The notes under the pieces were generated by a model. The model saw only the letters and a list, made by a program, of their open reading frames with translations, searched no databases and had not been told where the DNA came from. 64,000 nucleotides of DNA from Wuchereria bancrofti (taxonomy: Eukaryota > Nematoda > Chromadorea > Rhabditida > Onchocercidae): the NCBI GenBank assembly GCA_005281725.1, contig SSBO01000003.1:3647824-3711823 (forward strand), read 5' to 3'. The translations under genes were made by a program, and so were the position numbers. Below, piece by piece: positions 26,601-36,264 of this stretch. Position 1 is the first letter of the stretch. Each line of letters opens with the position of its first letter.

Positions 26601-27649
26601 TTAACAATTCACATATTTAATTAATCAAAAAAAAGGAGAAAAAACATATCGAAGTAATGTGGCAATTTTTATAGGCTAAAATAAGTGATTTTGGTATGTC
26701 ACGCGAGGGGACAATTTATAAGATGAAAACGTCGAAAAAAGTACCAATCAAATGGACAGCACCAGAAACTATTGCTACATTTGTTTATAGTTTGAAAACA
26801 GATGTTTATTCATTTAGTATAATGATATGTGAAATATTCACTGATGGTGAAGAACCGTACAAAGGATTGACTAATTCAGAAGTTAAAAAAATGGTTATTC
26901 ATATGAATCATTTGTCATCTTTGCTTTTTCTTTTTTGTTTTTGTACTTTTGTTTTTTTGAATAAAATTATGATATATGAAACATATAATTTAGGTATTAC
27001 GAGGAGAAAGGATGGAAATACCGGAAGCACCTGATGGTATATCATCATTAATTCGACATTGCTGGGATCAAAATGCGTCATCTCGTTGGACAATGAAAGC
27101 GGTAGTAATTTTTTTTTCTTTTTTATCAAAACAAGTTGATAACTTTCAGATCAAAAGAATGTATAACATATGTAAGTAAAATGAGCAAAAATTTTAGAAA
27201 TGTTTACTTTTTTCTGTTCTCTTTGCCCTTTTTAAAAAAAAAAATCAAAAAAAGCAAATGGTAAATATTTAAAAATTGTTTGAAATTTTGAATTGGCTTA
27301 ATTAAGCTTTAGATTGCTTAACAGATTTGAGATGCAAAAATATATATATACAATTATGATAGAAATTTTTGCTTTTTTTGATATTATATGTGCGCTTGTT
27401 TACATATTATATTTGCTTTTCCTATGCTTCAAAATAATTTTTTTTAAGGCAGTGAAAAAATTGGAAAAAATTGCTAAGCAAATTAATCCTCAAGGACTAC
27501 AATTGGACAATGTAACAGCAATTGCATTGGATTCAGGCAAAGATATGAGCTCATCCAAGAAAGCTATTAATTCCATTAAAAAAAGCACATCCTTAAAAAG
27601 CATTCCAGATAGTCCGACAATACAACATTTGGTAAGCACTCCTAATTGA
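23639..27649 (+). CDS. SH2-domain non-receptor tyrosine kinase (nematode FER-like family)
   Basis: Exons 24059-24168, 24359-24457, 24631-24768, 25488-25649, 25886-26047, 26285-26461, 26675-26893, 26994-27101 and 27449-27649 join in phase. A probable first exon is 23639-23672 (MAEKSSK...), the only ATG I found that supplies the needed phase; without it the gene is 5'-incomplete. The protein has about 469 residues. The SH2 domain runs from [10 protein letters not shown] through GDFLVRV (phosphotyrosine Arg) to [12 protein letters not shown]. The kinase has [12 protein letters not shown] (catalytic Lys), the EAR Glu, [11 protein letters not shown] and APE, so it should be active; the usual DVWSFG reads DVYSFS. 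SH2 followed directly by kinase, with no F-BAR domain, is the compact form greatly expanded in nematodes, often linked to sperm or embryonic functions. A basic Ser-rich tail follows. CATTTGGTAAGC near the stop is also a good donor, so a longer isoform is possible. Confidence 0.9.
25295..25347 (+). pseudogene. Frameshifted copy of part of kinase exon 4
   Basis: These 53 bases match 25515-25566 inside the real exon ([17 protein letters not shown]) with three substitutions and one inserted T that breaks the frame. It sits 193 bases before the intact exon, in its preceding intron, with no acceptor of its own. Confidence 0.8.
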
Positions 27650-29338
27650 TATAATAGCTAACAAATATAGTTTACTGATGTAAAAAGAAATTAATTAATT
27701 AATTAATTAATTATTAAATGCATACTTTATTCAAAGTTTTTTTTAACACTTAATTTCAATTAATTACTCAATGGCAATCAATAAAATGTATCATTAATTT
27801 GAAAAATTTCGATCAAATTTGATATACACAAAGAAATAAATAAGGCGTATAAAGTTAACACATACGAGTAAAATTAAAATAATATAAAATTATAAGTATA
27901 ACTAAAAAAATTTTTTTTTACCATTTAAAAGAAGAGAAAAAAGAATTTATCATATTAATGATTTCATTTAACTTTTAGAATAAAAGATTGCAAAACAAGA
28001 AAAAGAATAAATGATATTATTTTTCCTTCTCATTTTATGCCAATGAACTGTTTTAGTATTTCATTTCATTTCAATGATACTATATAATTTTAAAATGTTA
28101 ATTGCACTGCATATAATTAATAGGCGAAATATCTTAAAAAAGATTGTGAAAAAAAATCTAACAGTGCAATATACTTAAGCCTATTCAATTTCTCTGATGT
28201 AATAATTTTCCTAAGTTAATATTTAAATTTTCTGATGTGTTATTTCATTTCTTGATATTTAATGAAAAAAAAAAAACAGAAAAAGATACTAATAATGGAT
28301 GAAACAAGAAAAATAAAAAAAAATAAAACTAAAAAATTTTTTGACCGTATTTAAAGCAAGTTGAGATATTTTAAAAACAGTTGAGGTAAATTAAGAAATT
28401 CAAAATTGTTGCATAATTTAATCCAAAGATAACAAAATTTTGCATTTATTTTTGAATAGATAATTTTTATACAAAAAACTTTGCAACATTAGTGAAAAAA
28501 AATCAGCTAATCACTAATCAATCAATCAATAGTATTACTATAACAACAGAACTTTAAAATTATTATAGTTTGCAGTTGAAATCATACGCCAAAAACATTT
28601 GTAAAAGAAAAAAGATGAGGTCAAAGGTTATACAGTAACGTATAATTCCGTAAAGCATATCAAATAGCCTTTTAAGAAAGGAAAAAAAAACACACATATA
28701 TATTCAAACATACAGTTCAAAGTACATTTGAAACTATGCTTTGTAAACGACACGTTAATTAGTTTTCGATTGTAAACAATAGCAGAAAAAAAATTGAGGT
28801 CAAATATCAAAGCGATTAAAATTTTTTCTTTAAAGTAGAGGTAATTAAACAATAAGTGCAACAGTTAGTAGTGTGTGATTTTCATTTTTTTTAGCAATAT
28901 TTTAAACGTTCTGTTTAAAAAAAAATTTTTTTTTTGCTGGAAATTCTTGAATTACATTATCCTCAATAATAAATATATTCTTTTTTTTTGGAACATTAAA
29001 TCGGAATTTGAAATAATTGAAAAGAAAGTTTTTAAAAAAAGTAATTAGTAAACTGAAAAAATTCAACTAATTGGAAAATTTCTTCCTCTAAAAATTTGTA
29101 TGAAATAAATTTCCTAATGAAAATGATAATTGCATTATGAAGTATTATTTCATTATCACTGAAATTATCTTTTTTCTTTTTCCTCTCTCTTTCTTTCATT
29201 TTGTTAGAATATAACAATAGTAGAAAGATAGAAATGCAGTAATGATTAATTTTCTCCTTTTTTTTTCTAGAAAATTTTCCATTTTTTATTTTTTCTCGAA
29301 AATTTTTCTTTGAAAAAAAAAAAAAAAGAAAACTATCT
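27650..29338. other. Intergenic stretch between convergent genes
   Basis: Separates the ends of the kinase gene (+) and the bZIP gene (-). AT-rich, with ATTA repeats at 27690-27715 and A/T runs. AGGTCA-A-AGGTTA at 28618-28630 resembles a DR1 nuclear-receptor site. Bases 29285-29290 read AATAAA on the - strand, about 50 bases after the bZIP stop. No exon seen. Confidence 0.6.
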
Positions 29339-32300
29339 TTAAAGAATGTTAGCATTTTTAGCCGCATGTAATGCTTTAAGTTGTTCCAATTCTTGATTTA
29401 AACGACTCATCTCACGTCGAAGTTCATCATTTTCCGCTTCCAATTGTTGCGCTCGTTTGCTACGATATTCAAATTGAGCGCGACGATTTGCGCGACATCG
29501 TTTTGCTGCTTCATTATTACGCCGTCGACGATCAATGTACTGTTGCTAAAAATACTTCCTTGTAGTAATAAAGAAATATTTCCAAAAAAATTTAAGTTAT
29601 CAATTTTAAATTAGAATCGAATAATTGCAGCATTAATATGAATGAATAATCGATAATGTTTGATAATGTTACCTTGCTAGATGGTCGCGAGCGTAAAGCT
29701 TTAACAATTGCGGAATGTTTTGGTGCTGGACTAAGCTGTGATCTCATTGAATCAGTTGTACTGTTATTACTGATTGGTGATTCCATACTATCACTGCTAT
29801 CACTTTTAGTTGTTTTACCGGAATACATTCCGTCCGGCTTAGATGATACATCTGATATCACAGTTCGTGTTCCTGGTACTGTTAAGGCAGTACTCAAATT
29901 TACTGCCAAACTACTCAAACAGTTTTTCAAATCATTCTGCAAACAAATTATTTCATTCAACAAATTGAAATTTCAAAATAAAATTTCTTTTTGAAACTAT
30001 ACGATCGACTTAAATTTCAATAATTTGCACAATTTCAGCTATGAAAGCACAATAGCAAAATAATGGAAGCTTCGGACGATGTTGCAGTTTGTTTTTACAA
30101 TGCTGTTGAGGGAGCTAAACTATTTAAGCTTTCTAAATTAGTTATTAAGTTTCAAATTAATGTTGCATTTCAAGAAGATAGATAATTGACTTATCAACTT
30201 TAAGAATTAAAGGAAAGCCACATTTTGTATTGTTTTATGATAATACAATTTAAATAAATTTGAGTTTCAAATTATATATATTAAAAGAACTTTTTTGTAA
30301 TTTTAACTAAGGGAAAATATCATTTTTTTTTTTTTTTTTTTGTATTTAGTTTACATCTTTGGGTGATGAATTGTTGAGACCGGAATGAGTGTCGGTTCGA
30401 CTTTGTGCAACTAATGGTGAGGTTCGTTTAGTGGAAAGTAATGAGCCAAGCAAAGATCGTGGTTTATCATCCGTATCACTTTCTCTGGCTTTATCTGAAG
30501 AAGATGATGATTGTGCTAAAGTATCGTTCGATATTTGCTGTTCCGTTTCAATTTCTGTTGATAAATCCGGTTGTCGTTCCAATAATTCATATCGTAAAAT
30601 ATGTGATGATGAATCAGATGATGTTTCTATAAAAATGATGGATGAAATGATGCATTATGATATATTATCATATATTCATCGATCATATCAGTGATATATT
30701 ATCAAATAAGCAACCTTTATGAATAGTACTATGCATTGAGTAATCTAATGGTGTAATATCAGCTGTTGACGAATCAGGACTATAACTTTGCGTGGAACTT
30801 GTTGGATCACGCGAACTATGAAATGGTTGAAAAGCACCATGTCCAGAAGAAATTGTTGTTAATCCAGATGATGAACAATAATTCTGAAATAAATTTTTTT
30901 TTTCTTTTACACAACAAATAAATCTATTATAGAATGAAAAAAAAAAAAAAGGTCACGTCAAATATATCAAATGATACGTATCTGCTTCATACATTTATGT
31001 CATTGCTAAAATTAAGTTAAATTAACATTTTAAAAATTTATGAAAAATATTACTTTATTAAAATTAATGTATTATGTGTTAAAAGTAGTAACCTGTTGTA
31101 CTTGTTGTAGTGCAGCTTGAAGAGTGCATATTTGTAATGCAGGAAGTTGCTGTGCTGCAGATGCAGACACTTGTGATGTAGCATTAGCACCTGCAGGTGT
31201 TAAAAGTGATGTTGGAGCAGTCACAGATGATGGAAAAATTGGTGATGGAACAGAACCGGATGATGTAGTAAGTAAAGGTGTGGCAGTAAATAAATGTGTA
31301 GGAAACATTGCTGGTAATTTTGATGGTGGTACAATGACATTTGCCAAATTAGCTGCAAGTGTTGTCACCGATGAAACTGGTAACGATGGTACTGTTGGTA
31401 TCATCACATCAATATTATTCTTTCTTTGTGCTGTTGATACAATGACAGTATCATGAGCGGCAGATGTTACCAGGCGCAATGTTTGTTGTTCTTGCTGTTG
31501 TTGTTGTTGTTGTTGCTGTTGTTGTTGTTTTTGTTGTTGTTGTTGCTGTTGTTGTTGTTGCTGTTGTTGTTGTTGCTGTTGTTGTTGTTGTTGTTGTTGC
31601 TGTTGTTGTTGTTGCTGCTGTTTCAATCGATTCCTTAGTAGATTATTTTCTTTAGTTAATTCGAGTAGCTTTTGTTCCATAATCTAAAATTTAATTCGAA
31701 AAATTTAAATTTACAAATCTACATGAATTTGAAATACATAAATGTTACATTTATTTACCATCATTTACTTTTTTTCTTTTCATTCTACCAGGAATTCGTA
31801 TACTTCACAGTGAATAAAAAAAGTGTATTTTAAATATTGCAAATACCATATCATTCATACGACGCCTCTCACGTGACTTCTTTGTAATATCGTTGTTATG
31901 ACGTCGTTTTTCACAAAACATATCATCTCGAATACTTTCGTTTATGGATGGCCTGCTCCAGAATATATTTTTTTTTTTGTTAAGAAATAATCGAAATTTT
32001 TTAAAAAGTTTTTAACATCTTTATTTTATCTCGTTTATCATTTTTTTCCTTTTTTTTATGAGCAAATACGGTAACAATTAAATCTTATCTTTATATCTCA
32101 ATTAAATTCATTGGGGTTTTTTATCTTTTATTCTTATATTTCTAAAATTTGATTAAGTAAAATCAAGAAAATTTTATGAAATGAACAAACCGCCTATTTG
32201 AATTGATATTAGATGGTGCTGGTGAAATGGAAGTTTCAGAACTATTCGATGAATCAGATGGTCTTCGATCTATGTGATTAGTTGAACAGATTAGATTCAA

Positions 32301-32360
32301 ACCTCGTAACGATGAAGATGAATGTGAGCTTGAGCACGATTCAATATCTAATCCATCCAT
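29339..32360 (-). CDS. Transcription factor with two bZIP domains and a polyglutamine tract
   Basis: Seven exons, read on the - strand: 32360-32191, 31952-31847, 31683-31093, 30883-30715, 30626-30355, 29936-29673, 29545-29339. Every junction keeps phase, giving 592 residues. The first bZIP has basic residues 70-88 (CEKRRHNND then KKSRERRR) and a zipper with M94, L101, L108 and a-position N105; it resembles the NFIL3/CES-2 group, but the signature alanine pair is I79-T80. It is followed at once by 30 Gln, Lys and 12 Gln. A Ser/Thr/Pro-rich middle follows. The second bZIP is at the C terminus: DRRRRNNEAAKRCR (530-542) and leucines 559, 566, 573 and 580. The start ATG lies eight bases after an ATTGCAG acceptor. 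Two genes transcribed as one, or isoforms that use one domain each, cannot be excluded. Confidence 0.85.
31492..31620 (-). repeat. CAA/CAG trinucleotide tract coding polyglutamine
   Basis: Thirty Gln codons (31620-31531), one Lys codon (31528-31530), then twelve more Gln codons, mixed CAA and CAG, starting directly after the first zipper of the bZIP protein. The opposite strand shows long Leu and Val/Ala frames that are artefacts of this tract. Confidence 0.95.
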
Positions 32361-33284
32361 TACTCATCTGCAATTATCGCTTACCTTTATTTTTAATTTA
32401 CTCATTTTTAATATATTATCACAATTTTGTCATTTAAATGATGCTATTTGGATGAAAAAGAAAAAAAAGAAATTAAGGCAAATAATAAATTGAATCAGGC
32501 ATCATTGCTTTATTTAATTTTTCTCTTTTTTTCAATTAAAATGATTTTAAATCAATAATTTTACATACGTATAAACTAGAGTTGTAGAAAAAAAAATAAC
32601 ACAAATAAACAACGAAATAAAATGTTACCATCTTCAATTACTTTGTAATTTATTTTAAAAAATTTCATAATTGCAAGTTAATGAATTTTATTATTTAATG
32701 TTGACACTCAATTATATTGCTTAAATTGATAAAAGTAGTGTATAAGTGCAAGGTGTCGGCACTTATTAATTAAAAATCATTTTTATATTAATGCTCAAAG
32801 AGATGGAACGATTTCACGATAACTTATCAATAAAAATGGTGTTAATAATTTGAGCAATGATATTAACACGGTAATGATAAAGATAATTATCATCTAGGAT
32901 GTATGAAAGATATGATAAAGATATTGGCTATAAATGAATTTGAAAGCAGACATATGCCATGGTAATAATTATGTGATATTAATGCCAAAAATAATAGTGG
33001 TGATGCTAGAGATAGTAATTAATGATTAATAATAATGATGATCAATAATAGTGATTCTAATAACATTAATAATAAGTAGTAACAATGGCGATAATAATAA
33101 ATAATAATGATAAATAATAATAATAAGGTTATAGTAATATAAAAACAATGATAGTGATGACGTCATAGGGATGATTATAATGATAATGAAGTTTAGTGAA
33201 AACAAGTTTCTCGGGAAGTGAAAGATGAAAATGGAAGTGGAACTGGATACAGTAATGACACCGACGATGATTGGTAACCAAGAG

Positions 33285-33287
<3 letters not shown>

Positions 33288-33317
<30 letters not shown>
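33288..33317. repeat. TG microsatellite
   Basis: About 15 TG units. Confidence 0.95.
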
Positions 33318-33320
<3 letters not shown>

Positions 33321-36264
33321 TGGACCATCATTGAATTCGATTTGAAAAACAAGATTTTCTAAGTGTGGGTGTCTCGATGGAATTACATCGATTTCGTCCA
33401 TAAATAATAACAATAACAATGACCGGTTACGGTTTCACATAACCGGATATTGATATAAAAAAGAAAATGAAGGTCATTTAATTCTACGTATATACTTGCT
33501 AATGCTTTCACTTATTCATTTATCTAAATAAAAAAGAGAGAGGAAAAATCATTTCTGTTATTCTGTTTTACGTTTATTTTACTAAATCTTTAAAAGTAAG
33601 TTTGTTGAATAAAAATTAAGTGTCTAAAAATTGGTGCAATCAAGCTAGATGCTTCTTTTTTTTTTTTTCATTTCTATGTTTAGACACTATTTTTTATTGA
33701 ATTTTATGCGAACGTTTTAGATCATAAAAAAAATGATATCAAATTTGAAATTATCATTTTTAAATGAATTTTAAATGATTTAAATTAACACTGCGCATAA
33801 TGATTCAAATTGGTTGTTACCACTGAAAAAATATGTATGTAATCCGTATATGTTAGTTGCACTCGTATGATCAGATGTATAATAACTTTTTTCCAGATGC
33901 TTTTGTATACTTAATTTCTCCAAACCTAGAATTAATTCAAATTATTATTGGAATAATCAATAATCAAACGACTTGGAATTTATTCATTGAAATATTTTCT
34001 ATCAATTATCAATTTTGGATTATATTTAGCATTAGAAACTTTTTCTTTTCCTTTCTTTTTTTGACAGACAATAAAGCTTGCCTGAATTATATAGAACAAG
34101 ACCAGTTACAAACGATATATTTGTATTATTTTCATCATATGTCGAATGATCATATCGCTTTGTTAATTTTACTTTTCTCCTCTGAACATATCTAAAATAC
34201 CATTAGTAATGCTAAAATAAGCTCGCATTGTTTCAGAAAATTGTTGAATAAATTCGGAAAGTTTGCGATAAATTTCGTAAAGGTAAAGGTTTTGAAAATT
34301 AATTTTGATGAAGTTAGCATTAAATAATTATTAAATAAAAATATAATAAATAATTTATTCATAGTATTTTGAATGATATTTTTTCATATCTCAGAGAGAA
34401 AAAAAGAAAGAAAAGAAAATTATTTGAAAATTCTCAAAAAAAAAATATATAAAAATTATTTGTTAGATGACTTTATCTACATCTGATGATTTCTGATAAT
34501 TCTCTTGTCTGCAATAATTTCGGATAACTCATGGTATATTATGGTAATGATGATCATTCCCGGACAATTCCGCTATATTTGCTATAAACTCTAGATGATT
34601 TGTATTATATATGAAAATTCTAAATAATCTAAACAATTCTGGTACATCTGATGATTATAAATAATTCCGGTAGGAAATCTGAATGTTATTTGTTTCCTTT
34701 TTTTTTCTCCCAATTCATATCATCCATACATAATAAACTTTTTTTCTCTCATCATTCTTCTCCAAACGTAAAATTATCGAAATAATATAGGAAATTAAAT
34801 AGCGCATAGTAAGAGAAGTGAAAATCACATAGGGCGCAATTGTAATGTTAAATGATTAGTTACAAGGTCATTTACTTCATGCGCAAATGTATTTGTGTTT
34901 TTTTTTCTTTCCTTTCTCTTTCTTCCTTTCCCTTCTTCTTCTTCAGTATTACTACAGTGTACATTTTGCATCTGAGACATAATGGCAAAAAAAGAACCCC
35001 GTCCAAACAGTATGTCCGTGTTTTGGGCCTGTTATCTAATATTAGTACATAACAATCACACCTGTCTATATATTCGAATGTGGGAATTAGCCTTGAAATG
35101 ACAGGTAGAAATGGATGAAAGATGAAGGAAGTGGAAATGAATCAAATGAAATGAAAGGAAGGAACGAATGGGCAAAAGAAGTGATAGAAAAATAAAAAAA
35201 AAATTGATCAGTAGAGAATTTCCATTTCAATCGTAAAGAAAGACTTTTTTTTTGGATCAAAAAAAAGAAAAAAAAACTATTTTCCAAGGTAACAATTGAT
35301 TATTGCAAAAGAGATTTCATTCCTCAAATTTATGCATTTCCAATTTTTTTTTGTTGTGCGGTAAAATTGAAATATCAGAAATATATATGTAAATATGAAG
35401 TAGCTCAATAGACTTAAAGGAACTTTTTTATGGCGTTAAATTTTATAGCTAAAATATACTTTGATATTAAGAGAAAATTTTCTGATTAGAACACATTAGA
35501 AATAAATTTAATTGAAACTATTCATTAATATATCTTAATTTGATTATTTTCGATTTAAATTGTTACTGTTACTTTTGATTATTTTCGATTTAAATTGTTA
35601 CTGTTACTTCACTATTTGATTAAATATTTGGCATATTTAGTGTATATAATTAAATGTAACAAGAAACCAGAATATTAAGTATGAAATAAATTCATAACTG
35701 GTAACTTTCAGATAGAATAATTCAAATAACTGAATAAAACTAAATAAATTGCTAAGTTTTCACATGTATTTAAGAGTAGGGCTTTGTAATTTGAAACGCT
35801 GTTTGGAACTAATTAAATAAGCATTATAAAAATATGAATATAAGTTATCAATTTCATTCGTAATATTTTAATTCCGCTTATGAAATTTACATAATGCAGT
35901 TGAGAGTGTAAGGAGTAACAAGAAATCAAAATTACATAAGTATAAATTAATTACATATGTGTACAGATTAGTTGTAAGTGAAAAGTAGCAAAATTAAAAA
36001 AAAAATGTTCCATTTTTTTTTCTGTTTGATTTTGAAAAACGCTCATTGCCATAAAAATTGTAAAATGAAGGAATATAACGTATTTTACTAGTGAAATTCA
36101 AATAATTCAATCAAACAGCTGAAAGTTGTAAATAAAATTTTATTTTTTAAAAATTTAATAGAAATGACTCAAATTAATGAGTCAATTGATGAATAAATTA
36201 TGAAAAGATTGAAAAATTGATACAAATAGTGCATGGCGTGTATGTCTCTATCTGTGTTTGTGTC

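Follow-up and report, generated by a model that had tools for sequence, protein, structure and literature searches.

NFIL3 and Vrille have been studied as regulators of the clock, of immunity and of development that carry one basic leucine zipper (bZIP) domain. Vrille is a body-clock protein of flies and NFIL3 a regulator of vertebrate immune cells, and the sites of the NFIL3/Vrille/ATF-2 family are of the D-box/TTAYGTAA type. The ATF-2 protein of Caenorhabditis elegans has been reported as the counterpart of Vrille and NFIL3 (PMC4232591; PMC12521169), and in the accessible portions of these two papers no mention of a second bZIP in ATF-2 was found. Here we describe a gene on the minus strand of a 64,000-nucleotide stretch of the Wuchereria bancrofti genome (contig SSBO01000003.1, positions 3,647,824 to 3,711,823), referred to as the window. 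Its coding span (29339-32360, seven exons) is predicted to encode a protein of 592 residues with one bZIP near each end. Judged by sequence relationships, the gene is the orthologue of C. elegans atf-2, and its two-bZIP design is old and widespread, not unique.

Pfam bZIP_2 (PF07716) matches the W. bancrofti protein twice, with 36.5 bits for the first domain (bZIP1, scored alone) and 40.5 bits for the second (bZIP2) at a cut-off of 22.3. The first domain resembles the solved NFIL3 structure 8k86 (E = 3.8e-11), and the second bears only a weak likeness to any solved bZIP (E = 9.1e-4 with 8k86). bZIP2 scores 91 bits against a bZIP2 profile made from 18 seeds that do not include W. bancrofti. It occupies residues 525-576 (29390..29545) close to the C terminus, is of the RRRxNNxAAxxCR type, combines the basic region RRRRNNEAAKRCRANRR with a leucine zipper of four to five heptads and falls into the bZIP2 clade of our domain tree (support 95/90). 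Heptads were assigned by the standard bZIP register. A preliminary description of this locus, made from the sequence alone, had placed a second bZIP at the C terminus, in agreement with the Pfam match. It had also called the first domain a complete NFIL3/CES-2-like bZIP. The NFIL3 type stands in view of the match to 8k86, but "complete" was too strong for a domain with a changed core, an interrupting intron and a short zipper. Basic region 1 (residues 68-88, 31859..31921) lies in exon 2 and zipper 1 (residues 93-112, KLLELTKENNLLRNRL, 31624..31683) in exon 3, an intron separating the two. The core of basic region 1, which is altered in spirurids, reads NNDITKKSR in W. bancrofti and does not conform to the family core NNxAAxxSR: two residues of the DNA-contacting core, numbered from the invariant Asn, are replaced (A3I and A4T), a lineage-specific change within an otherwise orthologous protein. 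Zipper 1 comprises about three heptads and is immediately followed by a glutamine tract (44 Gln within residues 114-159, 31483..31620). The invariant Asn residues of the two domains are 458 residues apart, with a low-complexity linker of about 400 residues between the domains. The coordinates of basic region 1, zipper 1, the glutamine tract and the linker motif discussed below were obtained by arithmetic.

The minus strand was read over 27000-35500 to place the exon edges. All seven exons have AG acceptors, exons 1-6 have GT donors, and joining them in phase (incoming phases 0, 2, 0, 0, 1, 0, 0) gives an open reading frame of 592 residues that opens with the ATG at 32360 and closes with a stop codon at 29339, in agreement with the seven in-phase exons and the length given in the preliminary description. 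The GC content is 0.36-0.41 in the exons and 0.18-0.24 in the introns. The coding part of exon 1 (32191..32360) covers residues 1-56 and part of codon 57. An in-frame TGA and an ATTGCAG acceptor, likely that of a spliced leader, lie directly upstream of the ATG, which suggests that the N terminus is complete. Exon 2 (31847..31952) encodes residues 57-92, and exon 3 (31093..31683) residues 93-289 with zipper 1, the glutamine tract and the start of the linker. The linker continues through exon 4 (30715..30883), exon 5 (30355..30626) and exon 6 (29673..29936; 264 nucleotides, phase 0-0). Exon 7 (29339..29545) encodes bZIP2 and the C terminus, residues 525-592, with the stop codon. A likely poly(A) signal, AATAAA, is found at 29285..29290. 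With bZIP2 as query, the W. bancrofti genome (86.5 Mb, 108 contigs) yielded a single match at 99% identity, exon 7 itself, and three others at 36-41%.

A first protein search returned 42 matches, of which 28 came from nematodes or were nematode-like; each homologue search scored about 8000 candidates. Nine matches covered 91-100% of the query (Onchocerca, Setaria, Dirofilaria, Thelazia, two Toxocara models, Parascaris, Syphacia and Steinernema), and all nine carried both domains in the same order, bZIP1 being weak (31 bits) in Dirofilaria P0003. The best 120 of 359 matches of a profile search extended the set to C. elegans ATF-2 (401 residues) and other nematodes and, outside this phylum, to molluscs, a brachiopod, flatworms and a crinoid. 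With the crinoid protein as query, the best 120 of 2025 matches contributed starfish, sea urchins and hemichordates as well as an annelid and amphioxus. The resulting protein set is uninformative on the absence of cnidarians or of mammalian NFIL3. Using domain profiles built from 18 diverse proteins and a threshold of more than 30 bits for each domain, both bZIPs were recognised in 158 of 233 proteins including W. bancrofti, or in 156 without two rotifer tandems of PAR type, a proportion that is not a natural frequency because the queries were themselves two-bZIP proteins. These 156 consist of 49 nematode proteins, W. bancrofti included, and 107 others. They occur in nematodes, molluscs, a brachiopod, an annelid, flatworms, echinoderms, a hemichordate and amphioxus. 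The Logan records P0013, P0056, P0074, P0075 and P0083 were assigned to the 49 by sequence. When ten proteins selected from the 233 were checked with Pfam, all eight two-domain proteins showed two bZIP_2 stretches, and a mosquito and a fish single-bZIP protein one each. Both domains lie in one open reading frame on two Logan contigs, P0056 (406 residues on 1505 nucleotides) and P0092 (511 residues on 2587 nucleotides), which by their appearance would be complementary DNA (cDNA).

The claim of one gene with two bZIPs is supported by nematode homologues from Trichinella to Caenorhabditis and by the Logan single-frame contigs, and a comparison with orthologues, which had been proposed as a check, found both bZIPs in C. 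elegans ATF-2 and in other filarial homologues. A division into two genes was rejected on the evidence of homologues with both domains in one chain, and chance or a prediction artefact on that of conservation. The two domains differ consistently at core position 7. All 107 bZIP1 sequences from outside nematodes have Ser there, and 101 of the 107 bZIP2 sequences have Cys; the nematode figures are 45 of 49 and 49 of 49, respectively. The Asn at the a position is kept in 101 (zipper 1) and 105 (zipper 2) of the 107 non-nematode two-bZIP proteins. Both basic regions are intact in 101 of these 107, basic region 2 being altered in four amphioxus and two other records. The ENA records P0152 and P0161 have a decayed basic region 2 (e.g. 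KRRRYSEQAMQHN), a retained zipper 2 and an intact bZIP1.

Domain trees were computed from 56 domain sequences over 57 columns, with and without one long C/EBP row. Without this row, bZIP1 forms one clade (96/94) that includes VRI and NFIL3-like proteins, and bZIP2 forms another (95/90). With it, the bZIP2 rows of all sampled phyla still group together (96/93), in a branching order that largely reflects the phyla. As the bZIP2 rows form one clade, bZIP2 probably arose once, before the sampled phyla split. This timing fits the birth of NFIL3 from PAR proteins in stem bilaterians described in PMC4736632, in the accessible part of which a second bZIP is not mentioned. As to the source of bZIP2, its grouping with PAR has a support of 28/0, and groupings of bZIP1 with PAR and of bZIP1 with bZIP2 are not rejected (p-AU 0.50 and 0.43 on 57 columns); bZIP2 placed with PAR, with bZIP1 or with two other W. 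bancrofti bZIPs is indistinguishable in the tree. Two further bZIP exons, L007 and L008 on contig C12 of G000, are near-identical and about 34 kb apart, apparently a local duplication; we take them to be C/EBP-like.

Traces of the second domain may also be present in relatives with a single bZIP. We assembled 37 proteins with a full bZIP1 and without a full bZIP2, mostly arthropod Vrille/NFIL3 proteins together with fish and reptile NFIL3-like proteins, the hemichordate Ptychodera and other records; P0005, P0113 and P0148 were set aside by hand and checked later. When the bZIP2 profile was matched to their tails, its zipper, mainly the distal part, gave the best match in all 37 and outscored all 100 shuffles of the respective protein. 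Adding the three proteins set aside brings the count to 38 of 40, the one gained being P0113 (5.1 bits, reached by 0 of 100 shuffles). The match ends 2-39 residues before the C terminus, except in P0122 (114) and P0127 (72). A linker motif of the form P-x-KLR-x-K, noticed in this analysis and not taken from the literature, is shared by 89 of the 107 non-nematode two-bZIP proteins and 34 of the 37 single-bZIP proteins, and its presence in both supports their orthology. In Daphnia, a Vrille form without annotated bZIP still activates Dsx1 weakly, and the accessible text of the report invokes heterodimer formation (PMC5667737); a C-terminal zipper could explain this residual activity as far as that text describes it. 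A protein from the lamprey Lampetra planeri (P0148) contains two NFIL3-type bZIP1 copies (59-119 and 300-357) and no bZIP2 match, and would represent either a duplication of another kind or an error of the gene model.

In the filarial lineage it is the first basic region that changes. The basic region 1 states A3I, A4T, Y-7F and W-6C of W. bancrofti are absent from 145 non-spirurid two-bZIP proteins (the 158 minus four spirurids, two rotifer proteins and seven rows with doubtful models or shifted register), and other spirurids have distinct changes of their own. The set contains four spirurids with bZIP2, and in these the residues of that domain which are invariant elsewhere show no change. 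Among W. bancrofti, Onchocerca ochengi, Setaria and Thelazia, mean identity is 0.51 in basic region 1, 0.86 in zipper 1, 0.97 in basic region 2, 0.90 in zipper 2 and 0.69 in the linker with its glutamine tract shortened. Basic region 1 reaches an identity of 0.94-0.98 in Caenorhabditis, Strongylida and Trichuris/Trichinella, where it is at least as conserved as 366 of 380, 326 of 367 and 258 of 269 windows along the protein, respectively; the figure for spirurids is 66 of 514. When a fixed rule was applied to 79 nematode proteins, basic region 1 was intact in 41 and lost or altered with zipper 1 recognisable in 16, two of which are doubtful models (P0003 and P0006); Setaria P0002 was scored as intact despite alterations elsewhere in basic region 1. 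A further eight proteins start inside the domain, and 14, among them several short or doubtful models, have no zipper 1 match. The partial or doubtful models P0003, P0006, P0065 and P0069 are counted among the 79. Basic region 1 is gone in strongyloidid, Meloidogyne, Bursaphelenchus, Globodera, Pristionchus and Mesorhabditis models, and three strongyloidid proteins have zipper 1 without it. By these comparisons, basic region 1 is decaying in spirurids and zipper 1 is retained. Since the zipper stays when the basic region goes, dimer contacts and not DNA contacts appear to be the constrained part of the weaker head.

The reading that we lean towards, at slightly better than even odds for the whole, combines orthology to atf-2 and a two-bZIP design ancestral to bilaterians with a homodimer held at two places and bZIP2 as the DNA reader, the last two of which we infer. 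In worms, bZIP2 would read DNA and pair with itself in trans. Zipper 1, paired with its counterpart in the same partner or with a different bZIP protein, would stabilise the dimer and govern the choice of partner. In W. bancrofti, basic region 1 would now read DNA poorly. With two intact basic regions, as found in C. elegans, molluscs and starfish, the dimer would be bivalent and might occupy two PAR/NFIL3-type sites at once. The two mechanisms envisaged in the preliminary description, pairing within the molecule and bridging of two DNA sites, are both possible. For the family as a whole we propose, tentatively and at somewhat less than an even chance, that the bilaterian ancestor possessed a bivalent two-headed NFIL3/Vrille factor, that single-bZIP forms are reductions of it and that dimerisation at two points has been conserved. 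Arthropod Vrille and vertebrate NFIL3-like proteins would have kept half of zipper 2 at their end as a working fossil; several nematode lines, filarial worms included, would be shedding basic region 1 instead. One reading head would then be dispensable in each line, and the zipper sequence of both heads would be kept.

Several observations weigh against parts of these two readings. With the C/EBP row in the tree, the bZIP1 rows do not form one group (grouped in 29% of bootstrap trees). The tail matches of the single-bZIP proteins are short (3.5-25 bits) and weakest in bees, wasps and ants, no match was found in the lamprey protein P0148 or in the truncated nematode model P0005, and, because any coiled coil beats shuffled sequence, the homology of the tails is argued from position, register and the P-x-KLR motif. 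This motif was found in 0 of 79 nematode proteins, W. bancrofti included. Zipper 1 may be a weak dimeriser alone because only about three heptads precede the glutamine tract. By their heptad charges, mixed pairs are about as acceptable as homotypic ones. In the comparison of spirurids with ascarids, the identity of zipper 1 (0.65) does not exceed that of basic region 1 (0.70), which limits the contrast between the two to spirurids.

The charge pattern bears on an arrangement in which zipper 1 folds back on zipper 2 of the same chain, giving a single-chain pseudo-dimer. With its basic region 1 decayed, such a pseudo-dimer would act as a built-in dominant negative and keep bZIP2 masked until its release. 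The chemistry permits such pairing, with Asn facing Asn at a29 and favourable g-e' charges (scores in W. bancrofti of 3 for the mixed pair, 2 for zipper 1 with itself and 4 for zipper 2 with itself), the 458 residues between the invariant Asn residues are long enough, and the zippers are kept where one basic region is lost. Nevertheless, zipper 2 scores highest with itself, and co-adaptation of the two zippers within proteins, looked for across 22 chosen species as a sign of internal pairing, was not found (mean mixed score 2.82 within versus 2.85 between proteins, permutation fraction 0.72). As mixed pairs are no better within than between proteins, self-pairing of each zipper in trans is the simplest reading, and we consider the fold-back unlikely, if worth keeping in view. 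That bZIP1 is dying in filarial worms, an unused leftover on an ordinary single-bZIP factor, seems to us quite unlikely. It would account for the place of basic region 1 among the faster-changing stretches of spirurids, with states absent from the 145 other proteins, for the nematode models that have lost it altogether and for the equal spirurid-ascarid change of basic region and zipper. However, a dead domain should lose both alike, whereas zipper 1 exceeds the linker in identity within spirurids and is recognisable in the 16 nematode models with basic region 1 lost or altered, even if two of these are doubtful.

A very improbable explanation is that two neighbouring genes, or mainly single-domain isoforms, have been wrongly joined, with a start in exon 3 giving an N terminus that holds zipper 1 only. 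Exon 3 begins with ATTATG ahead of zipper 1 and basic region 1 sits in exon 2; a transcript starting at exon 3 would therefore encode a form without basic region 1. The strongylid-like Logan proteins P0063 and P0066 start with MAMEQ, and P0071 and P0073 with MEQ, at most two residues from the position of the exon 2/3 junction. These starts may reflect short isoforms, broken contigs or gene models, and together with the three strongyloidid proteins that lack basic region 1 they would suit such a reading. Against it stand the homologues from many nematode species and from other phyla in which a single chain holds both domains, several of them encoded on contigs of cDNA size, and the fact that all junctions are in phase. 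Furthermore, the four AATAAA motifs within introns are what chance predicts in AT-rich DNA, and in the stretch searched the one that follows the last exon is that at 29290.

The linker has features of its own. A motif specified in exon 5 (30391..30456), SLLGSLLSTKRTSPLVAQSRTD, has an LxxLL core, LGSLL. Its strict pattern occurs in 42 and a looser one in 49 of the 79 nematode proteins, the W. bancrofti variant failing the strict pattern, and the looser pattern was found in 0 of the 107 non-nematode two-bZIP proteins. The motif could bind a nuclear receptor or a cofactor. The 44-Gln tract is encoded by CAA and CAG, and nine relatives have shorter tracts in a similar position, with 5-21 Gln in the part that was matched. 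Exon 6 can be dropped in frame, and the Toxocara models P0006 and P0008 differ in its presence; because one has the segment and the other does not, exon 6 may be a cassette exon. Beyond the gene, an open frame on the plus strand (26675-27034) contains a KWTAPE motif and resembles a protein tyrosine kinase domain.

In the open-licence literature searched, we did not find the two-bZIP design described as a family trait, although earlier work on CES-2/ATF-2 or on bZIP networks may describe it; nor did we find there an ancestral two-bZIP state, zipper 2 remnants or the filarial loss of basic region 1. The preliminary description had known of no animal factor built in this way. This does not hold, as ATF-2 shows two Pfam bZIP_2 stretches and the accessible part of PMC9939569 mentions in passing two VRI candidates with two bZIP domains. 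The comparisons made here suggest that the NFIL3/Vrille family began with two bZIPs, one of which was later worn down in many lineages. If so, the C-terminal tails of NFIL3 and Vrille merit study as dimerisation elements, and the repeated one-sided loss of a basic region would be a natural experiment on the essential part of a bZIP.

Among the closest known systems, the two Rotaria proteins P0039 and P0040 also have two bZIPs per chain, but both domains are PAR-like and similar to each other (pairing support 92/66), so that this tandem is probably a separate local duplication. Arthropod Vrille and the vertebrate NFIL3-like and nfil3-6 proteins share the bZIP1 clade with W. bancrofti and have half a zipper at the position of bZIP2; unlike W. 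bancrofti, they contain one full bZIP (two proteins scanned with Pfam), and mammalian NFIL3 was outside the matches listed. The non-nematode two-bZIP proteins of the NFIL3/atf-2 type have the same domain order, and the 12 bZIP2 sequences sampled from them share a clade with that of W. bancrofti; they differ from nematodes in the P-x-KLR-x-K motif that most of them carry. A further close system is C. elegans ATF-2 (K08F8.2, Q21361; P0058), with bZIP1 at 52-103, bZIP2 at 328-386 and the nematode linker motif. In contrast to the W. bancrofti protein, it is 401 residues long, has an intact basic region 1 and lacks a glutamine tract after zipper 1. If the design is as proposed, C. elegans ATF-2 would offer a tractable model of a two-headed bZIP protein.

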